Both the position numbers and the translations under genes were made by a program. A DNA stretch of 50,614 nt from NCBI GenBank assembly GCA_015146655.1, contig VKHL01000183.1, positions 1-50,614 of the forward strand. Direction: 5' to 3'. Of the stretch, positions 1,657 through 45,847 are shown piece after piece (the stretch's first letter is position 1; the number at the start of each line of letters is the position of its first letter). The notes beneath the pieces were generated by a model, which saw only the letters and a program-made list of their open reading frames with translations, was not told the DNA's origin and made no database searches. The stretch is from Ochromonas danica (lineage: Eukaryota; Sar; Chrysophyceae; Chromulinales; Chromulinaceae).

Positions 1657-3867
1657 CTAATCCTGACTATCAACTATCATCTCCCCCCTGCGGGTATCAA
1701 CACGGCCTCTAATCTCACTGGCGGGGCTTGAGGGAACAATTTTATGGTTGCCAATATAAGAAGAGCCACTGTCTGTGGCCAGCCACTTAACACTTCCACC
1801 CAAGGGGGCCTTCTCGGTACTTTTAGCAGTTGTACCACGCATAGATAAACCATTTTCACGCATAGATGCTAAGACCCCAAGCACTCCACCAAGAGAACTT
1901 CTTTGAGACTTCTTCGAACTACGACGGCTACTACCAGTTCGACGACGTTGATTAGCTAAAAACGCACAGATCACATTAGAGCAGTATAAAACATAAAACA
2001 GAAAAAGAGCATACCATTCACGATATACGCCTTCATAAACTTCTCTTGCTCCTCCTTAGAAAAGAACTGACGCTTGTTAGCCACCCACCAGTAGTAAATC
2101 ATACTGCCCACGAAATATAACATCAACGTGATGCCCAGACCCTTGTTATCATTGTCATAGTATAGAGATATCACCATATACATGAAGAAGAATGCAATGA
2201 CCAACAGAGATCCCCATAAACCGAAAGGACTCTTGAAGCCACGATCCATACTCTTGAAACGAGTCGCAAATACCACGTGAGCTGCCATCATGCCAATCAC
2301 TTCCAAACACGTCTGCAAGCCACCCATATGAACGATCTTCAGGAAGAACGTGTTTACCTTGTAGTACCCTGCCACTAACAGCACATAGCTCAACAACGCA
2401 CACAGAAGAATCGCCATCACTGGCTTCGTCTCTTTCTTCACCATGTCGTCGCCCACAGCCAACAACCCGCCTGCTCTCTTCACTACTCCTCCAGATCCAG
2501 ATACCGCCTCAGCTGCTCGACAACCTTCCTCTTCTCCCTTCGCATACTCTACTACCAAACCAGACGATGCTTGAGGCTGAACCTGAACTTCTGCATCATC
2601 TGTGTTGTCCTTCTGAACTGTCGCCAACCAACTCGGCAACAGACCCGAACAAGCCATCGAGCGAATCTGCCTTCCTCCTCCATACAGAAACCCCAAGAAG
2701 CTTCCCGTGATGCCAGCCAACGAGAAGAATGGCAACACCTTGTCATTCACACCCCTCAAGCAGATCTTCAGACCCACTGTGTAAGGATAGGCCTCGGACA
2801 GTAATGTATTCGGATCCGATACGTAGGCGCGGGCCGCAAACACAGTACCCAAAGCGATCAGAATGGTGAAGATCATGATGCGCACCATTGCCACCGGGAC
2901 TACCTTGTTCAACTGAATAACAGTATATATGCAACGACAGCAACGCAATAGTCTCATTAGAATCAACAAACACATCATCTGCATGCTCCCACGCCTCTAA
3001 CGCAAATCACTCTAACCCTAACCTAACTTACAAACGTACACACACTTCAAATGCAATCTCTCACCTGATCGTTTGAGCACGTGCGCACAGCGTCAATACC
3101 CGTAAAGAGAAAAGCTGAATAGCCTAGTGAGCGAAGGAATTCAACTCCATCCCCATCAAACCCATTCGAAGACCACTCCAAATGAGACACCTTGCCATAT
3201 CGCATAGATCCGCTCATGAAGATCAGCTGAGTCGTAAACGAGCCTACCGCCAACACTCCCCAACTCCACCAGATCGCACGACTGCCAAACACCTGCAAGC
3301 TGATCGCCATCGCATAGAACCCCAGCCACAGCACAGGCAACCAATGCTCTGCAAACCCATAGATTTCGAAGAACATCGTGCCCATCAAATACGCACACAT
3401 CGACGAGTACAAGATGTACTTCCCACCCTCCATCACACCCGTGATATACCCCAGGGTGGGACCCAGAGTGCAGCGAACATAGCCATAGCAGCCGCCAGAG
3501 AAAGGAACGATGGACACCATCTCACTGTAGCTGTAGGTCAACACGATGTAGATGATGCCGGTTACAATGAGAGACACAAAGTATAACCACAGCCCATAAA
3601 TGGCGATGCCTATGCAAGCATTAAAGTAGTGAACGGTTAAGTATTTTCTGTTGTCTCAGCTGTCTTACCTTTATTCCACATGATGACCTGCTTGCCATTC
3701 ATAATACACAGGCCTTACAACATCATGATAAAGTGTTCAGTAAGCTTTTGTGAGAAGGCAGTTGACAATGGAAGACACAACTTCTCACCCAAAGCATAAA
3801 CAAAGAGGGATCCTGATTTGATGTGGACAGTAAACCCATGGTGTAAGGCTCTTTTGATAGCATTCAT
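1657..3867 (-). CDS. APC-family amino-acid/polyamine permease, copy A
   Basis: Five exons on the minus strand: 3867-3789, 3713-3669, 3609-3065, 2912-2015 and 1955-1657, all with GT-AG borders and matching phases, giving 622 codons (621 residues). It is a polytopic membrane protein of the amino acid-polyamine-organocation superfamily. The sequence shows many hydrophobic segments, a VSIVPFSGGCYGY loop in the early core and a GGGRQIRSMACSGLLPSWLA loop that corresponds to the family's conserved YG-R--MARDGLLP-type loop. The C-terminal exon encodes a basic, serine-rich tail (RRRTGSSRRSSKK) that is probably cytosolic. It is closely related to the gene at 11832-13963, including identical lengths for exons 2 and 3 (45 and 545 nt). 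The start at 3867 is the only ATG that gives an open first exon in phase. Substrate and membrane are not determinable. Confidence 0.82.
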
Positions 3868-5610: not shown

Positions 5611-5861
5611 CTTAAATTAAGGAAATGGGAGAAATTGGGTGGGTCTTTTACTTTTTGGGTTTTTTGTTTGCGCGTCCGTAGTATTAGTGGGACCTTGGGC
5701 AATTCGCAGCCTTTTTCAGAAGCCTTTTTTTGACCATTTACATAAATACAGAGCAAATACATAAATCTAGTGAGGAAATACATAAATCTAGTGAGGAAAT
5801 ACATAAATCTAGTCTCAATCGCGTTAAGGAAATACATAAATTGAGAATTTCCTTAATTTAG
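5611..5861. repeat. Possible terminal inverted repeats of a small non-autonomous element
   Basis: A 15-base stretch at 5611-5626 (core TTAAATTAAGGAAAT) recurs inverted at 5847-5861, with one base missing. The enclosed 220 bases hold no gene but include the 21-bp tandem repeat. The layout resembles a MITE-like element, though no target-site duplication is clear and AT-richness makes chance matches possible. Confidence 0.3.
5755..5845. repeat. 21-bp tandem repeat
   Basis: Units starting at 5755, 5776 and 5797 are identical over the core AAATACATAAATCTAGT, with GAGG as spacer, and a diverged copy lies at 5830-5845. The period is 21 bases. The array abuts the foldback that starts at 5857. Confidence 0.85.
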
Positions 5862-5959
5862 GAAACCCTGATTTTCGTAGATAAAACTCTTCTTTGAAAA
5901 CGCGCATTTTTCCCTTCTTCAAAGAAGAGTTTTATCTACGAAAATCAGGGTTTTCTAAA
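5857..5959. repeat. Foldback element with 42-bp arms
   Basis: The arms at 5857-5898 and 5918-5959 are reverse complements over 42 bases with a single mismatch, around a 19-base spacer. CCTTA lies just outside on both sides (5851-5855 and 5960-5964), a candidate 5-bp target-site duplication. A small GACCTT-CGGG-AAGGTC hairpin follows at 5971-5986. It may be a foldback/MITE-type insertion or a transcribed hairpin. The near-perfect arms suggest recent origin or selection for pairing. Confidence 0.8.
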
Positions 5960-6879
5960 CCTTAGCCCTCGACCTTCGGGAAGGTCCAGTGACCGTCAGA
6001 CCGTGGTGTCCATCATTCCCTATCAATGCAGCCTCCCAATGTTGCAATGACGTCCTTTTAAGAATGAATGCAACCAAGCTTCAAAACAGTTTGGAAATAA
6101 GATGGAAGTTAAGTTATCCAACAAAGCAAATGGGCAGGGTGATTTCCATATACAGTACCGAGCGATTGTTGTGACTGTTGTTAGGGTTAGGGTCTTTTGG
6201 GGCTTTTCGGCATTGGTGCTGTGCTGGCTAGAGTGAGCAAGGCGGGTAAACCTTTCCTCTAATGTGGGTAAACGAAATCTTACTTCACCACCCATGGGTG
6301 AATCCTATTCAAAGCTTGTGAGCATCTTATCGTATCATGTTTACGCTGAAGGAAAGCAACACGTCCAATTAATGCTGTGATTAGTGCTTGTGGGTGGTAA
6401 ACAACCTCATTTTGAAACAAAGCAGCGATATGTTAAGCGATTTCGAACAATAACATAAGTTAACTATGACTTGTCGAATCACAACACAAAATGTGATTCT
6501 GGGGGTGCGTTGTTTCCATATTTTTGAAATTGACTTTAGATATGGGATGATTTATTAGTATGGTACCTCGCCAAATATTATTATATATGATTTCAGCCTT
6601 TATTGCTTCGAAGGGAAAACATTTACTATGTGGCCAGACTATTAACCTATGCTGTAAAAATGCGTAGCTGTGAATATGTTCAAACTGGAGATCCTGCAGT
6701 TCCTTCCATCTCAAGCTGCAGTGATGGCTTTCTTTTTATCCTTACATGTGTAAGGTTTGTGGTTACGCTCGTTGTTGTTTAATTATGTTTATGTTATAAT
6801 AACGAATTATGTTTTGACCAGAGAATGAATATTATTGCAATGAATTTTCCTAAATAACATTAAAAGCAGGACAACTTCA

Positions 6880-9068
6880 TCATGCTACAATGTCATCATC
6901 AGAGACCAGCTCGTTCTCGATCTTGTACTGTGCACTGACTATGACTGTACTTCGCTTAACTACTTCACCGTCCTGCGTCACCAGCGGCTGCTTGGTCTCC
7001 AGTTTGCCATTGAGCAGGGTCATGAACATGATCACCGTCTCGTCCACCGCGAGCTGTGAGTTCATGCTATAACAATCGTGGATGGTCTTCACCCCGTTCT
7101 GTTTCACTGGATGCGTCTCACTGATTGTGCACTGCAATATGACCAGCGTCCACCTCTCGTCGATCTTGATCAAGCAGAATGCGTCACCGGACTCCAGGTT
7201 ACCATAGGGAGGGATGTACAACAAGTTCGGCTCCAGGTACTTCTTCTGCTCTCGCCAGTTGAGCGCCAACACTTCCTTTCGCGGGAAGGTCACTGTGACG
7301 TATTTTGCACCATCAGTGAGCGGCTTTGCGAGAAACTTGACACCTGAGATCTTGAAACCGTGGAGACACAGAAGCTCAAACTCGTTCCCATCGTCGCCGC
7401 CGCGGAAAGTGCCAGCATTATATTTGATGCGCGCCTGGGTCACGAGCATTCTGTCCTTTAGCTGGAGGAGGCTTCGGAGTACGAACGGGGAGGCGAAGGA
7501 ATAGATGTACGGTCTCCTCTCGAACAAGTATTTGCCATTCACCACATGCGGGTTTCTGTGCACGAGCACATCCGAAATGACATCCTCGGTGCCTCCAAAA
7601 CCAGCCTTGAAGAAGCGGTCACATACCAGCTCTCCCTTTTCCTTTATGACAGCTTCAAGTTCTCCCATTGCGTCACTCTCTTTGGAAGTTGCGCATAGAA
7701 TACTGTTCCGAATGGCCCCACCGAAGAACTGCATGTTGTCGTATGCGCACTGGGCCTTTTCCTTCCCATACTCCCTCTGGAACTGCTTGGAGTTGAACAA
7801 GTAGGCCTGCTCCTCAGCCGACCATGTGGGCATCACTTTGCGCCAGCCGTTCTTGATCAGCTCTTTAAAACGAGATGGCCGAAACGAAGTAAAGATAAGA
7901 GATATACCGAGGTGCCCGTGAGGAGACCCATCGGCAGTTTCCATATCGGCAAACAGCGGAATGTCTTCATCAAGCGGCTCATTACTCTCCACTAAGCGCA
8001 GGCCGAATTCTTCCTCACGAACATGACGAAACAGCCAGATCTCACCTCTACCGCTTATGGTCTGGTAGTAGAATGACCGCGTCGTTAGGCCCAGTGTGCT
8101 GGGGTTCTTTAACAGGCTCTTCAGGATGACGAGGAACAGAGCGCTCTTCCCGATGCCTTCAGTGCCCAGAATGGCGATCGTCTTGCTCCTACCAGGTACT
8201 TCTTCACTCAAGCATGAGGAGATATCCTTGATTAAGTCATCATAGCAGTCGCGGAGGTAGAGGTATGTTTTGAGGCCTGACTGCTTCTTCAACAAATCAG
8301 GCACACCAGAGAGATCTAAGAACTTGTTACCATCCTCCTTGAAAACAATTTTCACTAGACAAAAGAGCGAAAGAATCGTCAGTCTAATGGAAACGGCATA
8401 AAGCAGCATTTATTTAAATACCTTTCTCCTCCTTCTTTGATGCAGCAGATGTTTTGACACGTCCTCCTCCACCAGTTAGGGCAGCTGAAGAAAATAATAG
8501 AAGATATCAAGTGACAACAAGAGATCGAACAAGATGATTAAAAACAGACAGAAAACACAACAAAACAAGGCGAAGAAAGTCTATTTAAATACCTTTCTTC
8601 TTCTTCTTCTTCGCGAGGGTTTGGCCGCTTCCACAACTGCCATCTCAGCCTCGCTCTCACTATCAGAGGACTCGTCTGATGAGATTGACTCCTCGACACA
8701 AGCCTTCTTAGTAACGGAGCTGTTAAGAGGTACGTGTTAGATAACACAGAGAAATGAAGGATGGCAGCACTAGTTGACTTGCTCACCTCTTCTTCTCCTG
8801 TGCCTCGAAGAGCTGGTTCAAGTTGGTGATGGGGCCACCAGTCAACAACTTGGTCTTGCCGAGCTTGCTTTCCTTAAAAAGGGCCTGGGTGGTCTCCTTC
8901 AAGCCGATCTCATTGAGGAAGCTGAAGACAGACTTGAGCTTATCAATAGGCAGAGTTTCAGAAAACTGGTTGAACATGCAGGCAATCAAGACGTCAGTCT
9001 CCAGAGCAGATAATCGGATAAAACGAGAGAAAGATGGAGTGTCGCCATACCTTCCTCTTAGTTGCCAT
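6880..9068 (-). CDS. LisH-domain fused to Crinkler/RHS-type NTPase-nuclease
   Basis: Proposed five exons: 9068-9051, 8998-8787, 8719-8661, 8484-8422 and 8354-6880. All have GT-AG borders and compatible phases; the sum is 609 codons (608 residues). Residues about 7-75 carry a LisH motif (LKSVFSFLNEIGLKETTQALFKES in parts), a dimerisation motif. A Ser/Glu/Asp-rich linker and a Gly/Lys segment follow. The long last exon has a Walker A P-loop GTEGIGKS at about 181-188, a WSAEEQ segment typical of RHS/Crinkler NTPases, and a C-terminal restriction-nuclease-like region (a YIPPYGN--GDAF block, then LVILQCTISETHPVK). In this superfamily the NTPase and nuclease form nuclear-acting modules. The N-terminus lies 388 bases from the divergent LRR gene start. 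The intron 3 donor (GTGAGAGC at 8660) was chosen because it alone keeps the frame open. The last exon alone is strongly supported; the LisH link is inferred. Confidence 0.68.
8581..9068 (-). CDS. Alternative short LisH isoform with polybasic tail
   Basis: If the donor at 8660 is not used, reading continues from exon 3 to a stop at 8583-8581. The exons are then 9068-9051, 8998-8787 and 8719-8581, giving 123 codons (122 residues). The product keeps the LisH motif and the acidic Ser/Asp/Glu stretch and gains a KPSRRRRRRK tail that looks like a nuclear localisation signal. It could be a genuine alternative product, an ancestral separate gene, or a mis-spliced form. Both alternatives look protein-like, which is why both are listed. 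Confidence 0.4.
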
Positions 9069-9456
9069 GGTCTGGTGACAAAAGAATGCTGGAATGTTCA
9101 CCACGTCGCGATGTCGCATGTCATAGTCATAACTAGCTTTTTAGATATATGACTTTTCTCAGATCCCCCCATCCGAAAAGACCATTTATCCTGCAAAAAC
9201 AGACTTTTTCAAACGAAAACGAAAAAAGTGTGACAGGGTTTGGTTGCGCGGGAAGGCGGAACTGTTCCCCCGCAAATAGCAATTGTGCGGGACGTGATGG
9301 ATGCGATCTTTTCCAAGTTTGGTTTGCTTTGGTATTGTGCTGGTCTTGATTGAAGTTGCCCTTCTTTCTCCAATCGAGGTAGATCCATCCTACTTTCTCC
9401 ATGACTGTATTGTTTTGTTCACAATCTATTTCTGATGCCTTTTCTAGTGCAAATCA
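9069..9456. promoter_or_regulatory. Divergent promoter region of the LisH-Crinkler/RHS and LRR genes
   Basis: About 390 bases between two start codons. It contains TTGCGCGGGAAG at 9243-9254 (E2F-like), a nearby CCCCCGCAAATAG segment, and CGAAAACGAAAA at about 9222. The same kinds of short elements (TTGCGCGGGAAG, CGCAAATAG, CGAAAACGAAAA) occur at 4.06-4.17 kb upstream of permease A. Confidence 0.4.
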
Positions 9457-11193
9457 ATGGCGAATCTGCTGTTTTCATTAGACCAAAGACTCCTTCAACT
9501 CTCTCTGTCCAGCTTCCTGGACTGGGAAGATCTCTCTGCCCTTGATGTCGCATGTCTTGGCGAGAGTCGATCAAGATGGCTCGAGGTGGCCCGCGGCCTG
9601 ATCTCTTCAGCTCCTCCACTCCATTCCATCCCTGCCGTGAGAGAGTTTTGGCAATGGATTGGCCACAGAGGCATTTTCCTCGAAAGAATTCAACTGCACA
9701 TTAATGACTTGGATCTACTCTTGTCAAACTTGGACAGCCAAGGCTATTCCATAATTCGCGAGATGAAGATCTTCGATGACGAGGGCATGGGCGGCGCCAT
9801 CGACAAAAACAAACTGCTCGACTTGATGGGACGTTGTACAAATCTGCGAGCCCTCGCATTGGATCACTTGTACATTAATGAGGTACTGCTACGTAAGCTG
9901 GGCCAGGCTGTGCCTCCCCTCGAGAGTATCGACTTGTCCAATCTCATTCTGCGCAAGTGGGATGTCTCCGCATTCCTTGGCAGGCACGTGCCCGTGTTAA
10001 AAGAGTTGAAGCTATGGGAGTGCCAAATTGACGGGAATAAAGTGATTAACTATCTTCACAAGAACAATCTCTCTCTGGAAGTGCTGCAACTGGGTGCTGG
10101 CCATAAGATGGCTTTGGCGCACAAGATGGTGCTTGACTACCTCACTGCCCATGGGGAGTCTTTGAGATCGCTGCATTTGGAAGGTGCTGAACATACTTTT
10201 CCTATCACCAAAGACCTGCTGACTTCCATCTTGGGTCTCTGTCCTCGTCTGGAATTCTTGGCGCTGTCGAGCGCGCAGTCCTCAGTGGGGACACTGTCCT
10301 TGTCGCCCATCTTTCAAGCTCATCCTCACCTGAAGGCCATCTCCTTGAATGATCTGTCCATTGAGTTTGATGAAGAGGATCGCACTGTTGAATTGAAGTC
10401 CAAGATGCTGGAAATGCATACCAACTGGGAGGACTGGATCGCTTGCCTGCTGACTATTCTGAAGGATGGATACAGGCTGGGCATTACCCACGGCCATGGC
10501 AACCGATTTAGAGCTCATGCCAATGAGTTCAAGCTGGTGATTGACCAGCTTCATCCTTATTTATCTGCTTTGACAGTGGATGTGCACGATTTGAGCGACG
10601 AACTCTTCGTGGATTTGATTGCGAGATGCCCACTGTTGACTTGGCTAGATATTCGTGGGTGGTCGGGAGTCTTGTCTGATGCATCTCTGCGCGCTATTAT
10701 CTTACACCAACCTCCTCTAAGGTGTCTAGATATTATGCTGTTTGGTATGAGCGAGCAGAATCCCCTCTCTGATGAAGTGATCGCCGAGGTGATTGAGGCT
10801 TGTGATTCCCTGGACAATCTGAGAATCCCTTCCGCGGGTTGTCAAGCCATCAAAGCTGTGTCCAAGCATCCCACCTTGACAAATTTCTCTCTTACCATCG
10901 ATGGAATTAACGATGACATCTTGTCCTTACTGCTTGATGATGAGGTGAAATGGCCAGATGGTCTGAAAAGAGGATTGTTTCGACTTCCCGGTCAGATTTT
11001 CATTACCCTTGCTGATGAAGTGTCAACCTTCAAGAGTGCCGGATTTTCTCCTGGTACGAGGTTCTTTGTGCGACAGAGACACGATGGCAATGTGATCTAC
11101 ATGTCTCTGCCTTCAAGGATGCCAATACAGAGAGAGATTTTGGCTGAGGAGGTTAAAATTGTCGGGGAGGACTTTGTCCCAATAGCCAAGTGA
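9457..11193 (+). CDS. F-box-like/leucine-rich-repeat protein, paralogue 1
   Basis: A single-exon gene of 578 residues. The N-terminus (about residues 5-50, with FLDWEDLSALDVACLG) has the length and hydrophobic pattern of an F-box-like helical domain. Residues about 100-500 hold irregular leucine-rich repeats with LESIDLSNL, LKELKLWEC and LRSLHLEGA-type units. A conserved tail motif, LLLDDEVKWPDGLKRG, lies near residue 490. The gene at 44108-45847 (579 residues) shares the N-terminal box, repeat architecture and tail motif, so this is a family. A substrate-adaptor role in ubiquitin ligation is an analogy, not shown. No signal peptide or membrane segment is visible. Confidence 0.8.
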   Translation: MANLLFSLDQRLLQLSLSSFLDWEDLSALDVACLGESRSRWLEVARGLISSAPPLHSIPAVREFWQWIGHRGIFLERIQLHINDLDLLLSNLDSQGYSIIREMKIFDDEGMGGAIDKNKLLDLMGRCTNLRALALDHLYINEVLLRKLGQAVPPLESIDLSNLILRKWDVSAFLGRHVPVLKELKLWECQIDGNKVINYLHKNNLSLEVLQLGAGHKMALAHKMVLDYLTAHGESLRSLHLEGAEHTFPITKDLLTSILGLCPRLEFLALSSAQSSVGTLSLSPIFQAHPHLKAISLNDLSIEFDEEDRTVELKSKMLEMHTNWEDWIACLLTILKDGYRLGITHGHGNRFRAHANEFKLVIDQLHPYLSALTVDVHDLSDELFVDLIARCPLLTWLDIRGWSGVLSDASLRAIILHQPPLRCLDIMLFGMSEQNPLSDEVIAEVIEACDSLDNLRIPSAGCQAIKAVSKHPTLTNFSLTIDGINDDILSLLLDDEVKWPDGLKRGLFRLPGQIFITLADEVSTFKSAGFSPGTRFFVRQRHDGNVIYMSLPSRMPIQREILAEEVKIVGEDFVPIAK

Positions 11194-11831: not shown

Positions 11832-13963
11832 CTAGCCAAAGGAGCGCACCTCGTCAAGAGGATGGAACAAGCAAAATAGGATTTGGATATGGATATGGAC
11901 ACCAGGTGGGGGGGGGGGGGGGGGGGCAATAGATAAATGAGCAGAATAGCATAACATAAAAGCAATGAAAACGAAATAATCAATTAGTTGGAGTTGCAGC
12001 GGGCGAACAGCAGCATCTTTCGTGGGAGATGGAGCCACTTTACGACTAGATGTACCCCCAGGTTTCTCTTCGACAGTCTCCACAGCAACAACGTTCATGC
12101 CAGGGGGAGGACCTGCAGGCAAAACCTTGGAGCAATTGGTTATCAAATTGTTGAAGATCATGCCCACCGCTGAGGGTTTGGAGTTCTTGTCGCTCTTCCT
12201 GCTGCTGGTACTAATAAGACGTCTGCGCTTATTGGCTAAATACAAACAACAAACACTATCAGCTTGGAATATTAACAGGCGGGATGAGATCACTTACCAT
12301 TGACGACGTAAGCTTTCATGAAGTTATCTTGCTCCTCTTTCGAGAAGAATTGTTGTTTTGTCACCACTACAAAATAGTAGATCATAAAGCCGAAGAAGTA
12401 GCACATCAGGGTAAGGCCATGGCCTTTCCTGTCGTTGTCGAAATAGAAGAAAACACAAAACATCATAATGAAGTACAACAAGGTGACAATCGCTCCGGGA
12501 ATCCCCACTGGACTGACATATCCGCGCTCCATGCCAGAAAATTTTGTCGCAAATACGATATACGATCCCATCATGCCATACACTTCAATACAAGTCATCA
12601 ACCCGCCCATGCGAATGATTTTCACAAGCGGATCGTTGATTTTATAATAGCCCGCACAGATGATTATATATGCCAATACAGAGACCAAAATTACAGCCAT
12701 GATAGGCTTTGTCTCCTTCAAGGGGATCTTCTCGCCAGTTATCCGGGCATGTTCTAGTTCCGCGTCGGTGGCGTCTTTTTGAACCGTGGCTAACCACTTG
12801 GGCAGCAAGCCAGAGCAAGCCATGGAGCGAACAAGACGGCCACCTCCATAAGCAAACCCCAAGGAACTGCCAATTAACCCTGGCAGACATAAGAACATGA
12901 CATGTGCGGGATCAATGTCTGGAATAGCAAGCTTGAACCCTGCAGTGTATGGATAAGTAATGGCATAGATTTTCAAGTTACTCGTGTAGGCACGTGCCGA
13001 AATTATTGTAGAGAATGCCGTGAGCACAGTAAAGTAGACAGTGCTGACCATTGCACGCGGTACAGTTTTGTTGGACTGCGCGGACAAGAGGGAACAGTGA
13101 GGGGCATATCAACAAACAGCAGACAAAGAAGACACCCACCTGATCAGTTGAGCATGTTCGTACAGCATCAATACCCGTGAACAAGAAGTTAGCATAGGAC
13201 AAAGTCCGGAGGAATAGCTCGCCATCATTATCAAACTTGTTGATCTCATCGCGAAAGTTGCGGATTTCTCCGACATGCATGGCACCACAAAAGAAGATCA
13301 TTTGTATTGTAAATGTTACCAAAGCTAGGACTCCCCAACACCACCAGATCACTCTCGTGCCACCTACTTGCACACCAATAATAAAAAAGAAATAGGCAAG
13401 CCAAACCACCGGGAGCCACTTCTCTTCAAACTGATAGACGCTCATGAACATTGTGCCAACTAAATAGACGGTCATGGCAGTATAAAGGACATACTTTCCA
13501 CCCTCCATAATACCTGTGATGAATCCTAAAGTTGGACCAATCGTGCAGCGCGCATAACCAAAGCAGCCGCCAGCGAAGGGAACGATGGAAACCATCTCTG
13601 CGAAGTCGTAGGTCAGCACGACATAGATCACCGCTGCTACGGCAATACACTGGAAGTACATCCAAAAGCCAAACGTACTAAGGCCTAGAGATTACATACG
13701 ATTGTATTGTCAGACTATCCGAAGCTTGGCTAGAAGAACGAGTTTCCTCACCTTTACCCCACATAATAACATGCTTCCCATTCATAATGCAAAGACCTAG
13801 AAACGCCAAAAAAGAATTTTAAAAACCTGTCCAGGATAGGAGAGAGTGAAAAGTTGTCATCTGAGCGTTTCTTACTTAATGCATAGACGAAAATCGTGCC
13901 AAAGTTTCTTGCTATCCAGGCATAGAGAGTTTCTGTCTTTTTACCCTCTGCACCAACTTTCAT
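11832..13963 (-). CDS. APC-family amino-acid/polyamine permease, copy B
   Basis: Five exons: 13963-13876, 13796-13752, 13684-13140, 13075-12298 and 12235-11832, summing to 620 codons (619 residues). It parallels copy A in every exon: FVYAL in exon 1, CIMNGK--IMW in the 45-nt exon 2, VSIVPFAGGCFGY and the DAVRTCSTDQ end of the 545-nt exon 3, and YGGGRLVRSMACSGLLPKWLA in exon 4. It has about twelve hydrophobic segments in the APC pattern. The last exon starts with the same basic tail (ANKRRR--SSRKS) but then diverges and runs through a 19-C tract. Its final 50 or so residues look like untranslated sequence read as protein, so the true C-terminus is uncertain. The two copies are probably an old tandem duplication. 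Confidence 0.8.
11908..11926. repeat. G19 homopolymer inside the permease B C-terminus
   Basis: Nineteen consecutive G on the plus strand read as a proline run on the coding strand. Such tracts are prone to length error in sequencing and to slippage in vivo, so the frame after it is insecure. Confidence 0.95.
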
Positions 13964-26480: not shown

Positions 26481-29400
26481 ATGCAAAGAACGATTTTTGA
26501 TCGCTCTGTCATGGATGGATTCCGTGGCTCACGAGTGGAATCGGTTGTCTCCACTGCCCATGGACGAAAGATCTTCCTGGCAGTGAATGATGGAGCAATC
26601 ACCACCTATAACTGCTCCTTGGAGTCTAACAGTGCTGGCAGAATCTATGTCTGTAAAGATCAAGAGCTCTTTCGCAAGCCTAGTAAAGACAAGAAGTCAT
26701 GCGCTCCCCTTCTCGCAGTCGAGGTGAGTGTGTCTCTCTCTTTGACCTTTTCCCAGTCAAATCATACCATATCCATATGACTGCTTTTGTGCTGGTAGAG
26801 TTGGCGTGCTGTGGTCTGCATAGCGGATGGTATCCTCACTGCCTATGACGCTCAATTCGGACAGGCGATAGCCTCCATCCCAGACAACAAAGGCGTGCAT
26901 CTCTTTGCTGTCTATGAGAAGCAAGACTCTCTCCTCATTATCAACAAGAAGAAACTCGTGCATTATAGTTGGTCATCTCCTGGATTTCAACTGAGGAAAG
27001 AGTTCAATTTAGCTGATGTGCCCAAGTCTCTTCATCATATCGCAGGGACTGCTATTATTGGGTACAAGAAGTACTACGAATGTTTGGATTTATCCTCTGG
27101 TATTACTAGTCGATTAGTTGACTTTGAAAGAGAGCACAAGATGATCGCAGCTGAGATACCTGCCAATATCTATCGCAGTGAGCGCATTTTGATTTCAATA
27201 GGGCAGCAAGGCTTGCTCGTTGATCGTGACGAGATCCTCGCTGGTAGCTATATCTACCCTACAGAAAAGGTAGTACCCAAGGTAGATTGGGGAGCGCCGC
27301 CTAATGCTGTCAATGTCATGACGCCTTTCCTGTTGTCCACACTGTCAGACACCTCCGTGGAAGTGCATGATTTGCTGTCCCTCACTCTCCTGCAGAAGGT
27401 GGTAATCACATCTCTCAGCGGCTATGGTCTGACATTATCAGTTTGTTGTGAAGACATTACTCGTGGTCAGGCGGCAGGTTCACCTTTCTTGTATCACGCC
27501 TTCCTTTGCAATGGCGATCAAATGTTCGCCCTGAGAATGACTTCCTTGAGCAGCCAGGTCCACGATCTTGTGGCATATGGAATGTTTGAAGAAGCCATCC
27601 AGCTGTGCTCTCTCTGTCCTGTAGCAGACAAGCGAGACATTAATATGATTCAATTGCATGAGTCCGCTGCCAACACGATGATGAGCAAAGGAGACTATGA
27701 GAAGGCGATTGAACATTACATCCAAGCCCAGACAAGCTTTCTAATAGTCGCAAAGCAATTTCCAGACTTTATTCCCTTGTCTTTGCATGTGATGTTTGGT
27801 ATCATGCAAACGACGAAGCTGGCTGGGACTATTTTGCAGAAAGCTGCGGCTGCTGCTGCGACTTTCTGTCAATATCACCGCCCTCGAGTAAGCTGACCTT
27901 TTGCTTTGTCTTTGCTATTGATTGTTTGACATTACATTTGCTGTCTGGTGGGATAGATGAACAGACGTGGTGAAAAGGCTGAAAAGATGAAAGAATTGGG
28001 AATTATCGCGGCTAGCTCAGTGTTAAATACATCTTACAGTATGAGTAGCAAAGCCAAATCCAGAGACTATTCTGAAGATGAGGTATTGCTTTCTTCTTCT
28101 TGTTCTGTGGATAGGACTAGCTTTAGACTAATACTGTGGGATCATATAGGACTACATCGCTGACCCCGATGAAGAGCTCAAGAAGTGTGTGTTGCTAGAC
28201 AGCATGTTGCTCTTCGCTCTCATGCACTGTGCCAATGACCGCAAGCCAGAAGTCCTGCAGCTGCTTTCAGGACCAAATCGCTGCCAGATCGAGACATGTG
28301 CTGTTCTACTAGCTTCCCATGGCAACACCTACACTGAGGCTTTATTGTGGCTATATCGGTCTCAACATCAGCATGCGCGCGTCTTGCAAGCCCTCACAGA
28401 AGATAAATGTGTCGCGATTGGAGCATGGAGTCGTGATCAATTCTACTGTTGGACTGCTGATTATCTGCGCTGGTTGTGGTATAATGAAGAAGACAATACC
28501 TTGCCTCGACAGGCGCTCTTTGCTTTGAAGGCAGTGCTGGAATATGATGCTGAGCTAGGCTTGAGCGTGTTGGTTAGCAGACCCACTGGCAAGACTTCAT
28601 TTGGTGGGAAAGGGGTGACGATAGGAGAAGTGCTTACTTTCCTTCGCTCTTGTTCCCCTCGTATTAACTATGGGCGAGGTTCTATTAACCTGGCTGTCTT
28701 CCGTGGAGGTCACAGTGCTATTAGCAGTAGCCAGCAGACCGTGTGGGCAATGGAGAATTCAATAGCACAGGTGCTTTCTTCCATCCCTTTGGCCACAGGA
28801 CATGCTCTTGCTGTAGCCTTCTTAGAATGCTTAGTGGCCAGTGGTGAAGCTCCGCCTAGTCTACATGATGATTTTGCTCGTTTGCTGGTGGAGGGCATTA
28901 TCCAATCGCCCTTCCCTCCCACCACACCAGCAGAAGCTCTCCCAGAAGATGCCGAAGATCTGCTGTTGTACAAGATCTACCGCAAGAAGTTGCAGGCGTT
29001 CTTAGCCAATTCCAATGCCTACCATCCTCAAGCCATCTCCAAGATGTTGTCAAAAGAGTATTATTTGGAAAATGCACTCATTTTGGCTAAATTGGGTCGT
29101 CATCGCGATGTCTTGGTCATCTACATCAAACACCTCAAGAAGCTGGACCTGGCTGAAACTTATTGTGATAAGGTCTACACGGTGCTAAAGGACCATCCTA
29201 GTAATCTTGCTATGAATATGAAGACAAGTTTGATGGGCATTTTGAACTCCAACATGCCGCCAGGAGTGACCATTGCATTGGACCTCGCCGCCACTCTCTC
29301 AGAACCTTCTGAGATCTATTTGATCATGTTCCAGGTCATTCTAGATGAAGAGGAAGAGGAGAATGAGAATGAGAATGAGAATGAGAATGGCAGTGATTCA

Positions 29401-30314: not shown

Positions 30315-30908
30315 TTAGTTGCCATAGAGGAAAGGAAGACCAGTGATCAAGTGCTCGCCCTGGTACAGACCGCCGATCAACTGCTGAGAGTCGTGGCGGA
30401 GGAGCTCCAGGATGGCCAACATAGCCAGACGGCCGTGGTTGAGCTCCTGGTCCTGAGCCTTGCGGAGTTCCTCAGGGGTCTTGCCCTTGCCCTCAGTGTC
30501 GCCCAACACCAAGTAGCCACGGTAGTCCACGGCACCGATGAGGAAGAAGATCTGGAGCCAGCCAAGAGCAGGGACGGACTGGATAGCAGCGACACCGTTG
30601 GGGATGGAGTCGAAGGTGATGCCAGGAGCGATGTCACCAGGGAACTTGAAGATCTCAGGCACGATGTAGCCGAGGACAGCCAACTGAGCAACACGGCCGT
30701 GCTTCAGCTCAGACTCGCGGTACTGGTCGAAGGTAGCCTGGTCGATGTCCTTGGACAGACCAAGAGGATCGAAGAAACCAGCAGGAGCAGTGACACCAGC
30801 CTCGTTCTCGAAGGACATCTTGAGAGAAGAGGAGGTAGCACGGCGAGCCACAGGGGCGAAGGCAGAAGCGCCAATGAGAGAGGCAACGATAGCAAGAGCA
30901 CGGAACAT
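30315..30908 (-). CDS. Fucoxanthin-chlorophyll a/c-type light-harvesting protein
   Basis: A single-exon gene of 197 residues when started at the ATG at 30908; an upstream ATG at 30941 would add 11 residues that spoil the signal peptide. The N-terminus is a hydrophobic signal peptide ending in ASAFAP, the known cleavage context for plastid import through a secondary (four-membrane) plastid. Three membrane helices follow. Helix 1 carries ESELKHGRVAQLA and helix 3 carries QELNHGRLAMLA, the chlorophyll-binding Glu/His/Arg motif of the Lhc family. Helix 2 is around ALGWLQIFFLIGAVDY. The protein acts in thylakoid light harvesting. Strong codon bias leaves the complementary strand open throughout. 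Confidence 0.95.
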   Translation of the reverse strand: MFRALAIVASLIGASAFAPVARRATSSSLKMSFENEAGVTAPAGFFDPLGLSKDIDQATFDQYRESELKHGRVAQLAVLGYIVPEIFKFPGDIAPGITFDSIPNGVAAIQSVPALGWLQIFFLIGAVDYRGYLVLGDTEGKGKTPEELRKAQDQELNHGRLAMLAILELLRHDSQQLIGGLYQGEHLITGLPFLYGN

Positions 30909-30995
30909 TTTAGTGGTGGCAACGTGGAAGACTTCAGACACGCTCTGTTGCAGTTGTGGATAGCCAGCAGCGGCCTGCCCAGCGAGATCAACTTC
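30909..30995. promoter_or_regulatory. Compact divergent promoter, light-harvesting gene and acidic coiled-coil gene
   Basis: Only 87 bases separate the two proposed start codons. One or both transcripts must therefore start within this gap or overlap the neighbouring coding region. Confidence 0.45.
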
Positions 30996-32497
30996 ATGAC
31001 CTACCCCTCCGACACTGACAGCGAGGACGAGGCCTTCCTCCCCGAAGAGGAAAGCGATGAGGAAGAGGAAGAGGAAGAATTAGATAGTGAAGAAGAGTGT
31101 GAGGTAGATAGCAATGAGGAGGAGGAGGAGGAGGAGCAGTCCCCCAGCAAGGCGAAGGAGGAGGTGATGGTGAGCGACCACAGCGACGATCTGCTAGCAC
31201 AGGAGCTCATCGACAGAAGCATTGCCATTGATCCGCAGGACTACGACCCTGACCTCGTAGACTCTCCTCTCAGCGTGGACAGCGCCTTCCTGCCCAGCGT
31301 GTCCCGCTACTTGCAAGAGAAGGCGCTGACGATCTCGTGGGCCAGAACCACCTTCGACCAAGACATCGCCAAGGAGTACGCTGACTTCGTCATATCGCAG
31401 CTCTCCCTCTCTCTCAAGTCACTGCCAAAGTAAGTCTCTCTCTCTTCCTCCCCTCTTGCTCTCTCTCACTGACTGACTGACTGACTGGCTGCTACCTGTG
31501 CTATGCTATGATGTGTTGTGCTATGATGTGCTGTGGTGAGGGTAGCATCTGGAGTCGCATGGCGGGTAGAGACCTGGGGCTATTAAATGCTTTCTATCTG
31601 GCTCAGAGCAAGCCTCCACTCTCTCCTGTCGAAGAGCAGCTAGCACAGAGCAACAGTGAGAGAGCCAGCACAGTGACGATGATCACCGCCATCAAAGACC
31701 TCGTGGACGTGCTCAAGACCATGCAAGAGAGACAGAACCTCCTCCTGCTAACACCTCCTGACCTCTCGCTGCAATCGTCAGCTTTGGAGCCTCCGCCTAC
31801 AGTCCCCAGCCACACTGCCCCCGCCTCCTCCTCCTCCTCCTCTGCCTTCCATCTCTCCGCCATCGCCAAGCTCACTCGACAGCTGAAGAGAGCGTCGACG
31901 AAGATCACGTCTCTGGAGGAAGCTCTTGCCGTGGAGAGAAGACACTCTTCTAACTTGGAGGCGAAGGACAGGAAGATGCGCGAGCTGGTGGTGACCTTGA
32001 AGAACGTGTCGGAGCTGGACGATGCGGGCATCTCCATGCTAAGAGAGCTGTCTCACTCCAGGTCTTCTGTTAGCGACCCCGTGGTAGCCACGACAAGGTT
32101 AGACCGCCATCGAGGTGATACAGACAGAGGCCAAGCGACTCTCTGGTCCTCCGCTGCGGAGAACAATGTGCAACAGAACAATAGCAATAGCAGCAGCTAC
32201 TTGTTGGATCGATTGGTTGCAGGGAATGACAGCGAAGACGAGAGCCTCTTCGAACAAGAGAACTACTCGCCCTCCTTGGGCAAAAGGAAGAAGTCCCTGC
32301 TGGGTCTGACCTCTGCAGCCAGCGAGGGACGAGGAGAGAAGCCCAAGCGACAGCGCTGGGAAGGCATGCAGCAGACAGTTCAGCAACAGCAGGAGGAGGA
32401 GGAGCAGGTAGCAGACAGTCGAACAGCTGGTGACTCACAGCCACACGATCATCATCGAGCAGGGCAGAGTGACCACACTCCTCTGCGCAACAGATGA
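30996..32497 (+). CDS. Acidic coiled-coil protein, unknown function
   Basis: Two exons: 30996-31429 and 31546-32497, joined in phase 2, giving 462 codons (461 residues). The first 50 residues are almost entirely Asp/Glu/Ser, with runs of five to seven acidic residues. A conserved-looking segment follows (LLAQELIDRSIAIDPQDYDPD). Exon 2 includes a helical segment that looks like a coiled coil (LTRQLKRASTKITSLEEALAVERR) and a late Lys/Arg patch (GKRKKSLLG; EKPKRQRWEG) that could be nuclear localisation signals. A Gln-rich end follows. No catalytic domain is recognised. The chosen ATG starts just past the divergent promoter; the frame is open further upstream only because it runs antisense to the light-harvesting gene. 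Confidence 0.65.
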
Positions 32498-44053: not shown

Positions 44054-44107
44054 AACTTGGAATTCCGGAATTTGTCGATATGAAGGTGGAAGGACAAGGA
44101 GAAAGCA

Positions 44108-45847
44108 ATGAGTGTCTGGCAGTTGAATCGAGATATTCTTCACTGTGTTTACGCAGAGTGGTTAGTCTGGAGGGATCTGTCAGTCTTGGATGTCGCCTGT
44201 GTGGGCAAGGAGGATCGAGAGGCCTGGCTGTCTTCCTTGGCTTCCCTCAGGAAGACCAACAGCTTCATGGAGAGAGGATTCTCCGATAGGAAGGGCATGC
44301 TCTATTCTGACAAGATCGACCAGTGTCTGTTTGACGAGGCTATCAAGAGGTTGTATGGCTGGCTGGCTAGTCGCAGAGTCTTCTGTGTGGAAGGCTTCCC
44401 TCTGCGACTGCCTCTGTTGGAAGAAGTGCAAAGGTTTCACTGCCCTGCTCTTCAATCCATCGTGATAGAGCAGGTCTGGTTCTCCTCGTCCTACTCCTCC
44501 CAAGTGGAGAGGCTTCTCTCAGTCTTCTTGGCCCAGTGCAATGCACTGCGAGGTCTGGCCTTGGAGCTGCCCAACATGACTGAGGAAGAAGATCCAAATG
44601 AAGCTGAATCTGATGGGGACATTAGTGAGACTGTCCTTCTAGTCTTGGTGGAGAGCTTGAGAGAGAAGTCTCTGAGTCAGATCGCTCTGTGGGGTAGTGC
44701 CTTTGCAGGCCGTCGCCTTGCCTTGACAACGATTCTCCTCTCAAAGCACGCCTCCTCTTTGCAGGAGATCAACCTGAGAGTGGATGATGGAGTAGAAGCG
44801 ATCATGTCCGCTCTGCTGGAGAATCAAATCCATCTGAAGGTATTGAATGTCTTCTTGCCTGGAGAGGATTTGCAGTCGTTGGATTCCTTGTTGTTACCCT
44901 ATCTCTCCTCCGCTGGTGACTTGTTAGAGACGCTGCAGGTTGAGTGCTGCAGTGGGTCGTACTTCGATATCGAGCACATCTTGATCGCTGTTGCAGCATC
45001 TTGTCCCAAGTTAGCTTGCTTGGTGATGCGCAATGTCGAGCCATGCAGTGTTGAGATCCTGCGCCATCTCTATGAACACTGCCCACTTCTCCAGGACTTG
45101 TTCATTGAGGGAACTATCACAGCACATCACACAAGTAGTGTTGTGTCAATGACGTTGAGTGGCTCCAGTGAAGACTGGGCGGCTTGCTTGTCTCATGCAC
45201 TGGCTAGAAGTCCTTGCAAAGAGGTGATGCTAAGGCTAGAAGAAGATTATGATCCAGTGCCAAATAATCTCCAATCCGTGCTGGAGCCTTACCGTATTTG
45301 TTTATCTTCTTCCGCACCTGAGGCCTCCTTGGTCGCCCTGTTGAATGATCTTCCTAACTTGAAGTGCTTGTGCCTTCAACTAGACGTGGCGACTGTCTAC
45401 ACTGATGCTACCTTGTCAGCAATCAAAGCGCATACGAAAAGTCTCGTAGAGTTGTGCTCACAAATTTCTTCCTTCGGCCGTCAAGCTTTCAAGTTTTCTG
45501 ACAAGATGCTCAGTGAGGTGATCGAGGCCTGCCAGCAGTTGAAGAGCCTCACAGTGCATTGTTGCGGACTGCAGAGTCTTCTGGCTGTATCGAAGCACTC
45601 AAGTCTGAGAATGGTTTGCTTTCCCAAAGCTCAGCCAGTCTACAAGAAGGCAGTGGAAAGGCTGTTGCTTGACGAGGAGGTGGTATGGCCTGACTCTCTT
45701 CAAAAAGGGTATTTCTGTGACTCTCAATCCAGCAAGTGCTATCAGTTCAATCAAGAGTCACACAAGTGGACTGTGAATAAGTGCAGCAATACAGCAACTG
45801 GCAGAGCAGGTACGAAAAAGCGCCGCAAAACCCGCAGATTCTTGTAA
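44108..45847 (+). CDS. F-box-like/leucine-rich-repeat protein, paralogue 2
   Basis: A single-exon gene of 579 residues, one residue longer than its relative at 9457-11193. The N-terminal box (WLVWRDLSVLDVACVG) and the tail motif (LLLDEEVVWPDSLQKGYF) match that copy; the leucine-rich repeats between them are more divergent (LREKSLSQIALWG; LKVLNVFLPGEDLQSL; LACLVMRNVEPCSV). The very C-terminus is basic (KKRRKTRRFL). The shared ends and variable middle suggest a family in which the repeat face evolves for different partners. No signal peptide is seen. Confidence 0.8.
   Translation: MSVWQLNRDILHCVYAEWLVWRDLSVLDVACVGKEDREAWLSSLASLRKTNSFMERGFSDRKGMLYSDKIDQCLFDEAIKRLYGWLASRRVFCVEGFPLRLPLLEEVQRFHCPALQSIVIEQVWFSSSYSSQVERLLSVFLAQCNALRGLALELPNMTEEEDPNEAESDGDISETVLLVLVESLREKSLSQIALWGSAFAGRRLALTTILLSKHASSLQEINLRVDDGVEAIMSALLENQIHLKVLNVFLPGEDLQSLDSLLLPYLSSAGDLLETLQVECCSGSYFDIEHILIAVAASCPKLACLVMRNVEPCSVEILRHLYEHCPLLQDLFIEGTITAHHTSSVVSMTLSGSSEDWAACLSHALARSPCKEVMLRLEEDYDPVPNNLQSVLEPYRICLSSSAPEASLVALLNDLPNLKCLCLQLDVATVYTDATLSAIKAHTKSLVELCSQISSFGRQAFKFSDKMLSEVIEACQQLKSLTVHCCGLQSLLAVSKHSSLRMVCFPKAQPVYKKAVERLLLDEEVVWPDSLQKGYFCDSQSSKCYQFNQESHKWTVNKCSNTATGRAGTKKRRKTRRFL

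Follow-up and report, generated by a model that had tools for sequence, protein, structure and literature searches.

The locus examined here raises the question of how a LisH-like motif comes to stand in front of a P-loop NTPase with a nuclease-like end, and whether the two are parts of a single gene, as a first-pass annotation of this DNA had proposed. It lies on the minus strand of contig VKHL01000183.1 of Ochromonas danica (GCA_015146655.1), of which positions 1 to 50,614 were analysed; this whole stretch is called the window, and all positions given without a contig name refer to it. The searches covered one genome, a draft assembly of 31.2 Mb in 337 contigs, and all exon borders were inferred from the sequence and from family likeness and are gene models only.

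The four small upstream exons with GT-AG borders and the long open exon of the first-pass annotation were all recovered. Exon 1 (9051–9068) encodes MATKRK and is identical to exon 1 of a nucleolin-like gene on C222; exon 2 (8787–8965) encodes the LisH-like motif; exon 3 (8593–8719) begins with an acidic Ser-rich, nucleolin-derived part that reaches to 8620 and ends in an Arg-rich short linker of the NTPase family (8619–8593); and exon 4 (8422–8484) is 63 nt long. The introns between them and exon 5 occupy 8966–9050, 8720–8786, 8485–8592 and 8355–8421. Exon 5 (6880–8354) is open throughout and encodes the body, that is, the NTPase and putative nuclease, with its stop. The P-loop appears as a Walker A motif GTEGIGKS (8143–8166), followed by the motif FGGAIR (7708–7725; FGGxxR) and by a C-terminal GDAF...QxT....HPVK block (7102–7188), a candidate active site of a restriction-endonuclease-like domain. 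The 3' flank (6167–6880) is 100% identical to that of C223 over 714 bp and to that of C24 over 395 bp. Elsewhere, the window carries an FCP-like gene with an ASAFAP-type presequence (30315–31079), which makes a photosynthetic stramenopile likely.

Eleven bodies were studied, the window's included, together with two short fragments on C7; weaker family members on C113, C30, C126 and C337 were matched with other queries, and all family counts are lower bounds. Relatives of the exon 5 protein are encoded on C223 (98%), C24 (98%, broken), C56 and C7 (twice each, 78%) and, more remotely, on C268 (33%) and C175 (three times, 31%). No DNA difference separates the two bodies on C56 or the two on C7, and the three on C175 encode proteins that are 100% identical; several copies sit at the ends of contigs or form tandems of identical bodies (C56a/b, C7a/b), positions at which the assembly is likely to contain errors. 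Behind their headers, nine of the 11 gene models stay open up to the stop (the C56a model lacks its start; C268 is open unspliced too). The remaining two are the window copy, which stops at the join, and C24, which joins in frame and has 17- and 8-base gaps and stops in the body. Comparison of the window body with C56a (pN/pS 0.55, p=4.6e-5) and of C223 with C7b (0.59, p=2.5e-4) indicated purifying selection; in the third pair tested, C56a with C7b, constraint was not significant (0.82, p=0.09). Proteins of the Crinkler/RHS (CR) family have a Walker A motif of GxPGIGKS type and a motif of FGGxPR type. All six aligned members of the present family fit both, with G63, G66, I67, G68, K69 and S70 of the first and F210, G211, G212 and R215 of the second invariant in every row.

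The origin of the LisH-like part could be followed in the same genome. Positions 8620–9088 of the window, comprising about 20 bp of 5' leader, exons 1 and 2 and part of exon 3, are 91% identical over 482 columns to the nucleolin-like gene on C222, introns included; intron 1 matches at 84/85 bases and intron 2 at 58/64. This identity within introns, together with that of the block as a whole, shows at the level of sequence that the LisH-type header was copied as DNA from the 5' end of a nucleolin-like gene. The captured block is preceded, at a distance of 15 bp, by the end of a dispersed repeat. Apart from C222 (91% protein identity), the LisH exon matched one other place in the genome at E<=1, the 57 bases with which C56 begins (95%). 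The C222 product has a LisH-like start, long acidic Ser-rich runs, an RRM (RRM_1, PF00076, two stretches, E 1.4e-32) and an RGG-rich tail, and in these acidic stretches, RRM repeats and tail it is like Nucleolin/NSR1-type proteins; unlike them, the window retains just the LisH-like motif and the first acidic stretch. A LisH-like motif ahead of acidic Ser runs may also resemble the arrangement in Nopp140. In profile searches the LisH-like motif gave weak matches, always below cut-off: four LisH models touch the C222 version (E 0.0043–0.1; best 17.2 bits versus a cut-off of 27), one touches window exons 1–3 (E 0.032; 14.3 bits versus 30.7) and two touch window exon 2 alone (E 0.016 and 0.16).

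The fusion junction lies inside exon 3, at 8619/8620, where nucleolin-derived DNA meets family DNA. The C56a junction is the same, and C56a and the window form a single alignment over 6873–8845 (87%) that runs through it. Because C56a aligns in one piece through this junction, we regard the LisH-to-NTPase join in the window as real as DNA. The C56a sequence begins inside exon 2 at the contig edge, with the LisH motif itself beyond that edge, and its model keeps a single frame from the exon 2 tail across exons 3–5 up to the usual stop. The end of exon 3 differs in length between the two copies, and because the difference is not divisible by three, the exon ends in phase 1 in C56a but in phase 0 in the window. 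Phase 1 is also found at the end of the header exons in eight further copies (C223, C24, C7b, C7a, C56b and C175a–c). With the borders conserved in the family, exon 4 is therefore out of frame after exon 3 in the window and its third codon is a stop, the product reading ...AAKPSRRRRRRK-LP-stop; with intron 3 left unspliced it reads ...RRRRRRKVFK-stop. The in-frame join of the upstream exons to the NTPase exon, on which the first-pass annotation was built, thus fails with these borders, and the window copy is probably not intact as a fusion. The proposed combination of LisH and NTPase/nuclease holds as one gene structure, in frame at the C56a junction; with the conserved borders it does not hold as an intact gene in the window, and LisH is not a header characteristic of the family.

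Header and body of the window copy have different histories. Intron 2 is identical to that of C56a at 63/64 aligned bases. Exon 4 and intron 4 together match C24 at 128/129 bases and C56a at 100/123, and C223 and C24 bear a different header from the window despite their near-identical body and 3' flank. Thirty sites from intron 3 through intron 4 separate C24 from C56a; those in intron 3 are mixed in the window (4/7 C56a-like, 3/7 C24-like), and all 23 later sites are C24-like. The best position for the switch from C56a-like to C24-like sequence is 8517–8480, at the end of intron 3, and a break as strong was seen in 179 of 20,000 shuffles. A crossover at the end of intron 3 best accounts for this conflict between the nearest relatives of header and body, and most likely the LisH-type header was recombined onto a C223/C24-type body near 8517–8480. 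Exon 4 is missing from C223, as if through recombination between two GGTATTTAA-type repeats at the donors of exons 3 and 4.

Examination of the other copies gave, as gene models, seven header types and one shortened form on the 11 bodies; for five bodies, representing four independent events, a donor of the header was identified. C223, C24 and C7b share a signal-peptide-like header, MLTFALFLQLACLLLPSMAY..., which continues with a 55-residue stretch containing 8 K/R, 1 D/E and 14 S/T; all four genome matches to it lay on C223, C24 and C7, that is, none outside the family. C7a has a shortened header form and is in frame (540 aa). C56b (549 aa overall) has a membrane-anchor header; 142 bp of its DNA match, at 94% identity, the beginning of a C7 gene in which the next exon encodes a cytochrome P450 (PF00067, E 8.9e-31); the start codon lies outside the common piece, and P450 coding sequence would have to act as a splice donor in C56b. 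For C175a the header donor is a cytochrome b561 gene on C60 (PF03188, E 1.5e-26), whose 5' end is shared over 490 bp at 99.4% identity, including 265 bp ahead of the start codon. For C175b it is an acidic Ser-rich gene on C13 with an 867-aa open frame, again through its 5' end (398 bp, 99.5% identical, including 138 bp ahead of the start codon). The near-identical neighbour of C175b, C175c, with a short, Cys-rich header, is without the C13 piece and represents the empty site, and the insert in C175b is flanked by a 39-bp repeat with one mismatch. C268 has a helical header that looks like a coiled coil by eye and has relatives on C99 (67%) and at C56:160005 (44%). A ubiquitin-like or LFLAK header was sought by Pfam scans of five headers (LisH type, signal type, C175b, C175c and C268) and was matched in none.

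By these comparisons, the source of four headers is in each case the 5' end of an unrelated gene (nucleolin-like, cytochrome b561, cytochrome P450 and acidic Ser-rich), with the start codon and leader of the donor included in three of the four captures, and the LisH-type header is one of several on near-identical bodies. The modes of joining differ, with fusion inside an exon, insertion with flanking duplication, and joining in or near intron 3.

Taken together, we consider it probable (about 0.68) that the window locus is a member of a small, recombining family of P-loop NTPases with a putative restriction-endonuclease-like domain, resembling Crinkler/RHS proteins, which carries a nucleolin-derived 5' end; this fusion is in frame in C56a and, with the family borders, broken in the window. 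The 5' end of a nucleolin-like gene was copied as DNA with its introns kept and joined within an exon to family DNA, and the crossover at the end of intron 3 most likely placed the LisH-type header on a C223/C24-type body. Broken ends at or near the header border may have been filled with copies of 5' gene pieces, and joins giving a start codon and frame would persist; that such breaks are made by the body's own putative nuclease is speculation. Most likely, the LisH part in the window yields at most a short LisH-acidic-Arg peptide, and it is the C56a-type copies that make the LisH fusion.

More tentatively, and with odds that we would put a little short of even, the family may gain its N-termini generally from 5' pieces of 0.14–0.5 kb of unrelated genes of its own genome, so sending one body to different compartments under different 5' control, in an ongoing birth of Crinkler-type headers. 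From its domain types, the body is predicted to be an NTP-driven, DNA-acting protein of the conflict type. A donor N-terminus would re-address this one catalytic body, to secretory or plastid-like, membrane, nuclear or nucleolar destinations. The LisH/acidic/Lys-rich header would direct the products of C56a-type copies to the nucleus or nucleolus, possibly in dimeric form; the P450 and b561 pieces would anchor theirs in membranes; and the signal-type header, in which SMA-YxP presumably resembles ASAFAP, would enter the secretory route or the plastid.

The strongest competing explanation is that the locus makes two products, a short LisH-acidic peptide that stops at 8581 or earlier and an NTPase that starts at an ATG at 8409 or further in, in which case other headers might be dispensable too. 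The frame of exons 1–3 does run into a stop, within either intron 3 or exon 4, and the ATG at 8409, directly after a stop, opens a 509-aa frame: the stretch 8355–8409 lies within intron 4, is in frame with exon 5 and reads MLLYAVSIRLTILSLFCL-VKIVFKE, a hydrophobic stretch. A counterpart of this ATG with a similar hydrophobic stretch was found in all seven close copies, the set compared (window, C223, C24, C56a, C56b, C7a and C7b); length differences around it are multiples of three among six of these, and C223 differs by its loss of exon 4. The view of the first-pass annotation that the long exon has no credible start was thus not sustained, and the conserved ATG strengthens the two-product explanation and somewhat weakens both our main reading and the wider proposal of header capture. 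The same stretch, however, has good intron ends in the close copies (donor AAAG/GTATTT or GTATTA, pyrimidine-rich acceptor), and in the eight other copies the phase at the end of the header exons suits the body. With good intron ends and a conserved ATG both uses of the stretch are possible, and the body, in the window as elsewhere, could be made from this start without any header. On balance we hold two separate products to be somewhat unlikely.

It is also conceivable that the bodies belong to a mobile element, as an RHS-like insertion target or a transposon passenger, and that the headers are by-products of insertion without any re-addressing. The presence of near-identical bodies at several places, the duplication around the C175b insert, the repeat that ends so close to the captured nucleolin block and the possible header-independent start would all fit such an element, but the open models of nine bodies behind their headers (C56a without its start) and the constraint on the body in two of the three pairs argue against it, and we judge it unlikely.

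A single LisH-NTPase-nuclease protein could be made from the window copy itself by splicing off the family borders, for example with exon 4 skipped and an acceptor inside exon 5. The window body is still fully open, and with exons 1 and 2 and the start of exon 3 fixed at least 208 GT-AG chains keep the frame to the end of exon 5, among them one of 594 codons that joins donor 8593 to acceptor 8337 without exon 4. All of these need borders foreign to the family, whereas the borders common to the sister copies give open models in those copies and a stop in the window, and we regard such a protein as improbable. The exact length of 609 codons, which had been offered in support of the join, was rejected as evidence: if exon 1 and the beginning of exon 2 are kept constant, 15 different GT-AG chains leading to acceptor 8354 come to 609 codons, and the full set of conserved borders occurs in none of them. 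That the draft assembly, in 337 contigs and with several family copies at contig ends or in tandem, wrongly joined a nucleolin-gene repeat to an NTPase copy in the window is highly improbable, given that the same junction occurs on another contig, C56, and that the window header differs from both C222 and C56a.

The assignment to the Crinkler/RHS type, which the first-pass annotation had made from motifs, was examined separately. The motifs are present as described above, but no Crinkler/RHS model scored above its cut-off in Pfam, NCBIfam and PDB sequence searches. RHS and Crinkler Pfam families were matched neither by six members at E<=1, where the best match was to DUF87 (E 0.00092), nor by three queries at E<=10. 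PF07999 was not matched in the genome, a weak negative since the same search also matched none of 14 controls. TIGR01631 touches five of the six members weakly in their C-terminal part, with a more extended match in C175 (best E 0.027, 12.7 bits versus a cut-off of 89.75). This match was rejected as proof; an arbitrary string scored E 0.0052 against another model. Pattern scans for relatives in viral and prokaryote collections gave 31 and 19 stretches, respectively, none of which was confirmed by tblastn. The structure model of the whole body was poor (pLDDT 60), and fold searches with it gave no match at E<=0.001. The C-terminal domain was modelled better (pLDDT 80, pTM 0.82), again with no PDB fold match at E<=0.001; 13 of the 50 matches listed (211 at E<=10) are restriction, nicking, resolvase or repair endonucleases by title, Mre11:Rad50 left out of the count and none of them significant. 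The GDAF...QxT block is without a plain ExK. Membership in Crinkler/RHS is accordingly unproven, the case for it consisting of the motifs and of matches below threshold.

In passages of a review that summarises Zhang et al. 2016, CR proteins are described as a header followed by NTPase, HTH and REase, with many unrelated headers, and no same-genome donor genes are named for them (PMC5289972). Here, donors, recipients, an empty site and a crossover are legible in one genome, so that the origin of headers becomes testable. If true, our proposal would illustrate how an organism that is probably no pathogen redirects a protein of this kind within its own cell. Searches of the literature, judged from titles, starts of abstracts and passages, found no report in which headers had been taken from identifiable non-family genes, and none that joins 'LisH domain' and 'Crinkler'.

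By comparison with known systems, the family shares with trypanosome RHS proteins (TIGR01631, PF07999) the faint TIGR01631 match and is unlike them in the distance of that match from its cut-off and in leaving PF07999 unmatched. With oomycete Crinklers and CR proteins it has in common an exchangeable N-terminal header of several types, a P-loop NTPase and a C-terminal nuclease-like region; it differs in that the five headers scanned lack an LFLAK or ubiquitin-like match, that four headers come from genes outside the family, and that the organism is a likely alga. A further parallel is in Phytophthora sojae, for which passages of PMC3726527 describe different N-termini on nearly identical C-termini, arising by exchange among CRN genes through duplication and recombination at the header/body border, marked by HVLVVVP. 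The swapping of parts is known inside oomycete Crinklers; what differs here, as far as the titles, abstract starts and passages show, is that the donors lie outside the family and that their pieces are joined within an exon, within an intron, or by insertion with flanking duplication.

Within the body of the window copy of this NTPase/putative nuclease gene, nine positions at which the window differs from both the C223 and the C24 copies are clustered between 6912 and 7085. The window agrees with the C7b copy at five of these nine, three of which are also shared with C56a, and judged from this pattern the segment looks like a gene-conversion tract. Further upstream in the gene, short repeats of the GGTATTTAA type are found at the exon 3 donor and at the exon 4 donor (window 8592-8421; C223, ~27380-27410). 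C223 is without the stretch between two such repeats, with the reading frame kept, as if the two repeats had recombined.

Upstream of the captured block of nucleolin-like sequence, and separated from it by 15 bp, is the end of a dispersed repeat (window 9103-9238) for which the genome search gave 25 other matching rows, mostly ~60-115 bp long; the promoter region of the new gene is therefore partly repeat sequence. On the other side of the gene lies a ~285-bp repeat (5690-5975) with copies, many partial, across many contigs; it contains an inverted match (5857-5959) and by eye appears MITE-like.

Two long open frames in the window (9448-11193 and 44084-45847) are LRR/F-box-like by eye and have similar starts; the former matches LRR_At5g56370 with an E-value of 4.3e-6, at the cut-off. 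The region is flanked on either side by mutually related multi-exon membrane transporters, by eye amino-acid-permease-like (1971-3655 and 12290-13691), perhaps reflecting a local duplication.

An additional signal-peptide-like (signal-type) header is present downstream of C7b (C7:97429-97716) and a run of N separates C7a from C7b, both of which indicate that assembly of the C7 tandem array is probably incomplete. The signal-type header of C223, C24 and C7b has SMA-YxP followed by a stretch that residue counts showed to be Ser/Arg-rich and acid-poor, an arrangement that resembles a heterokont bipartite plastid presequence.
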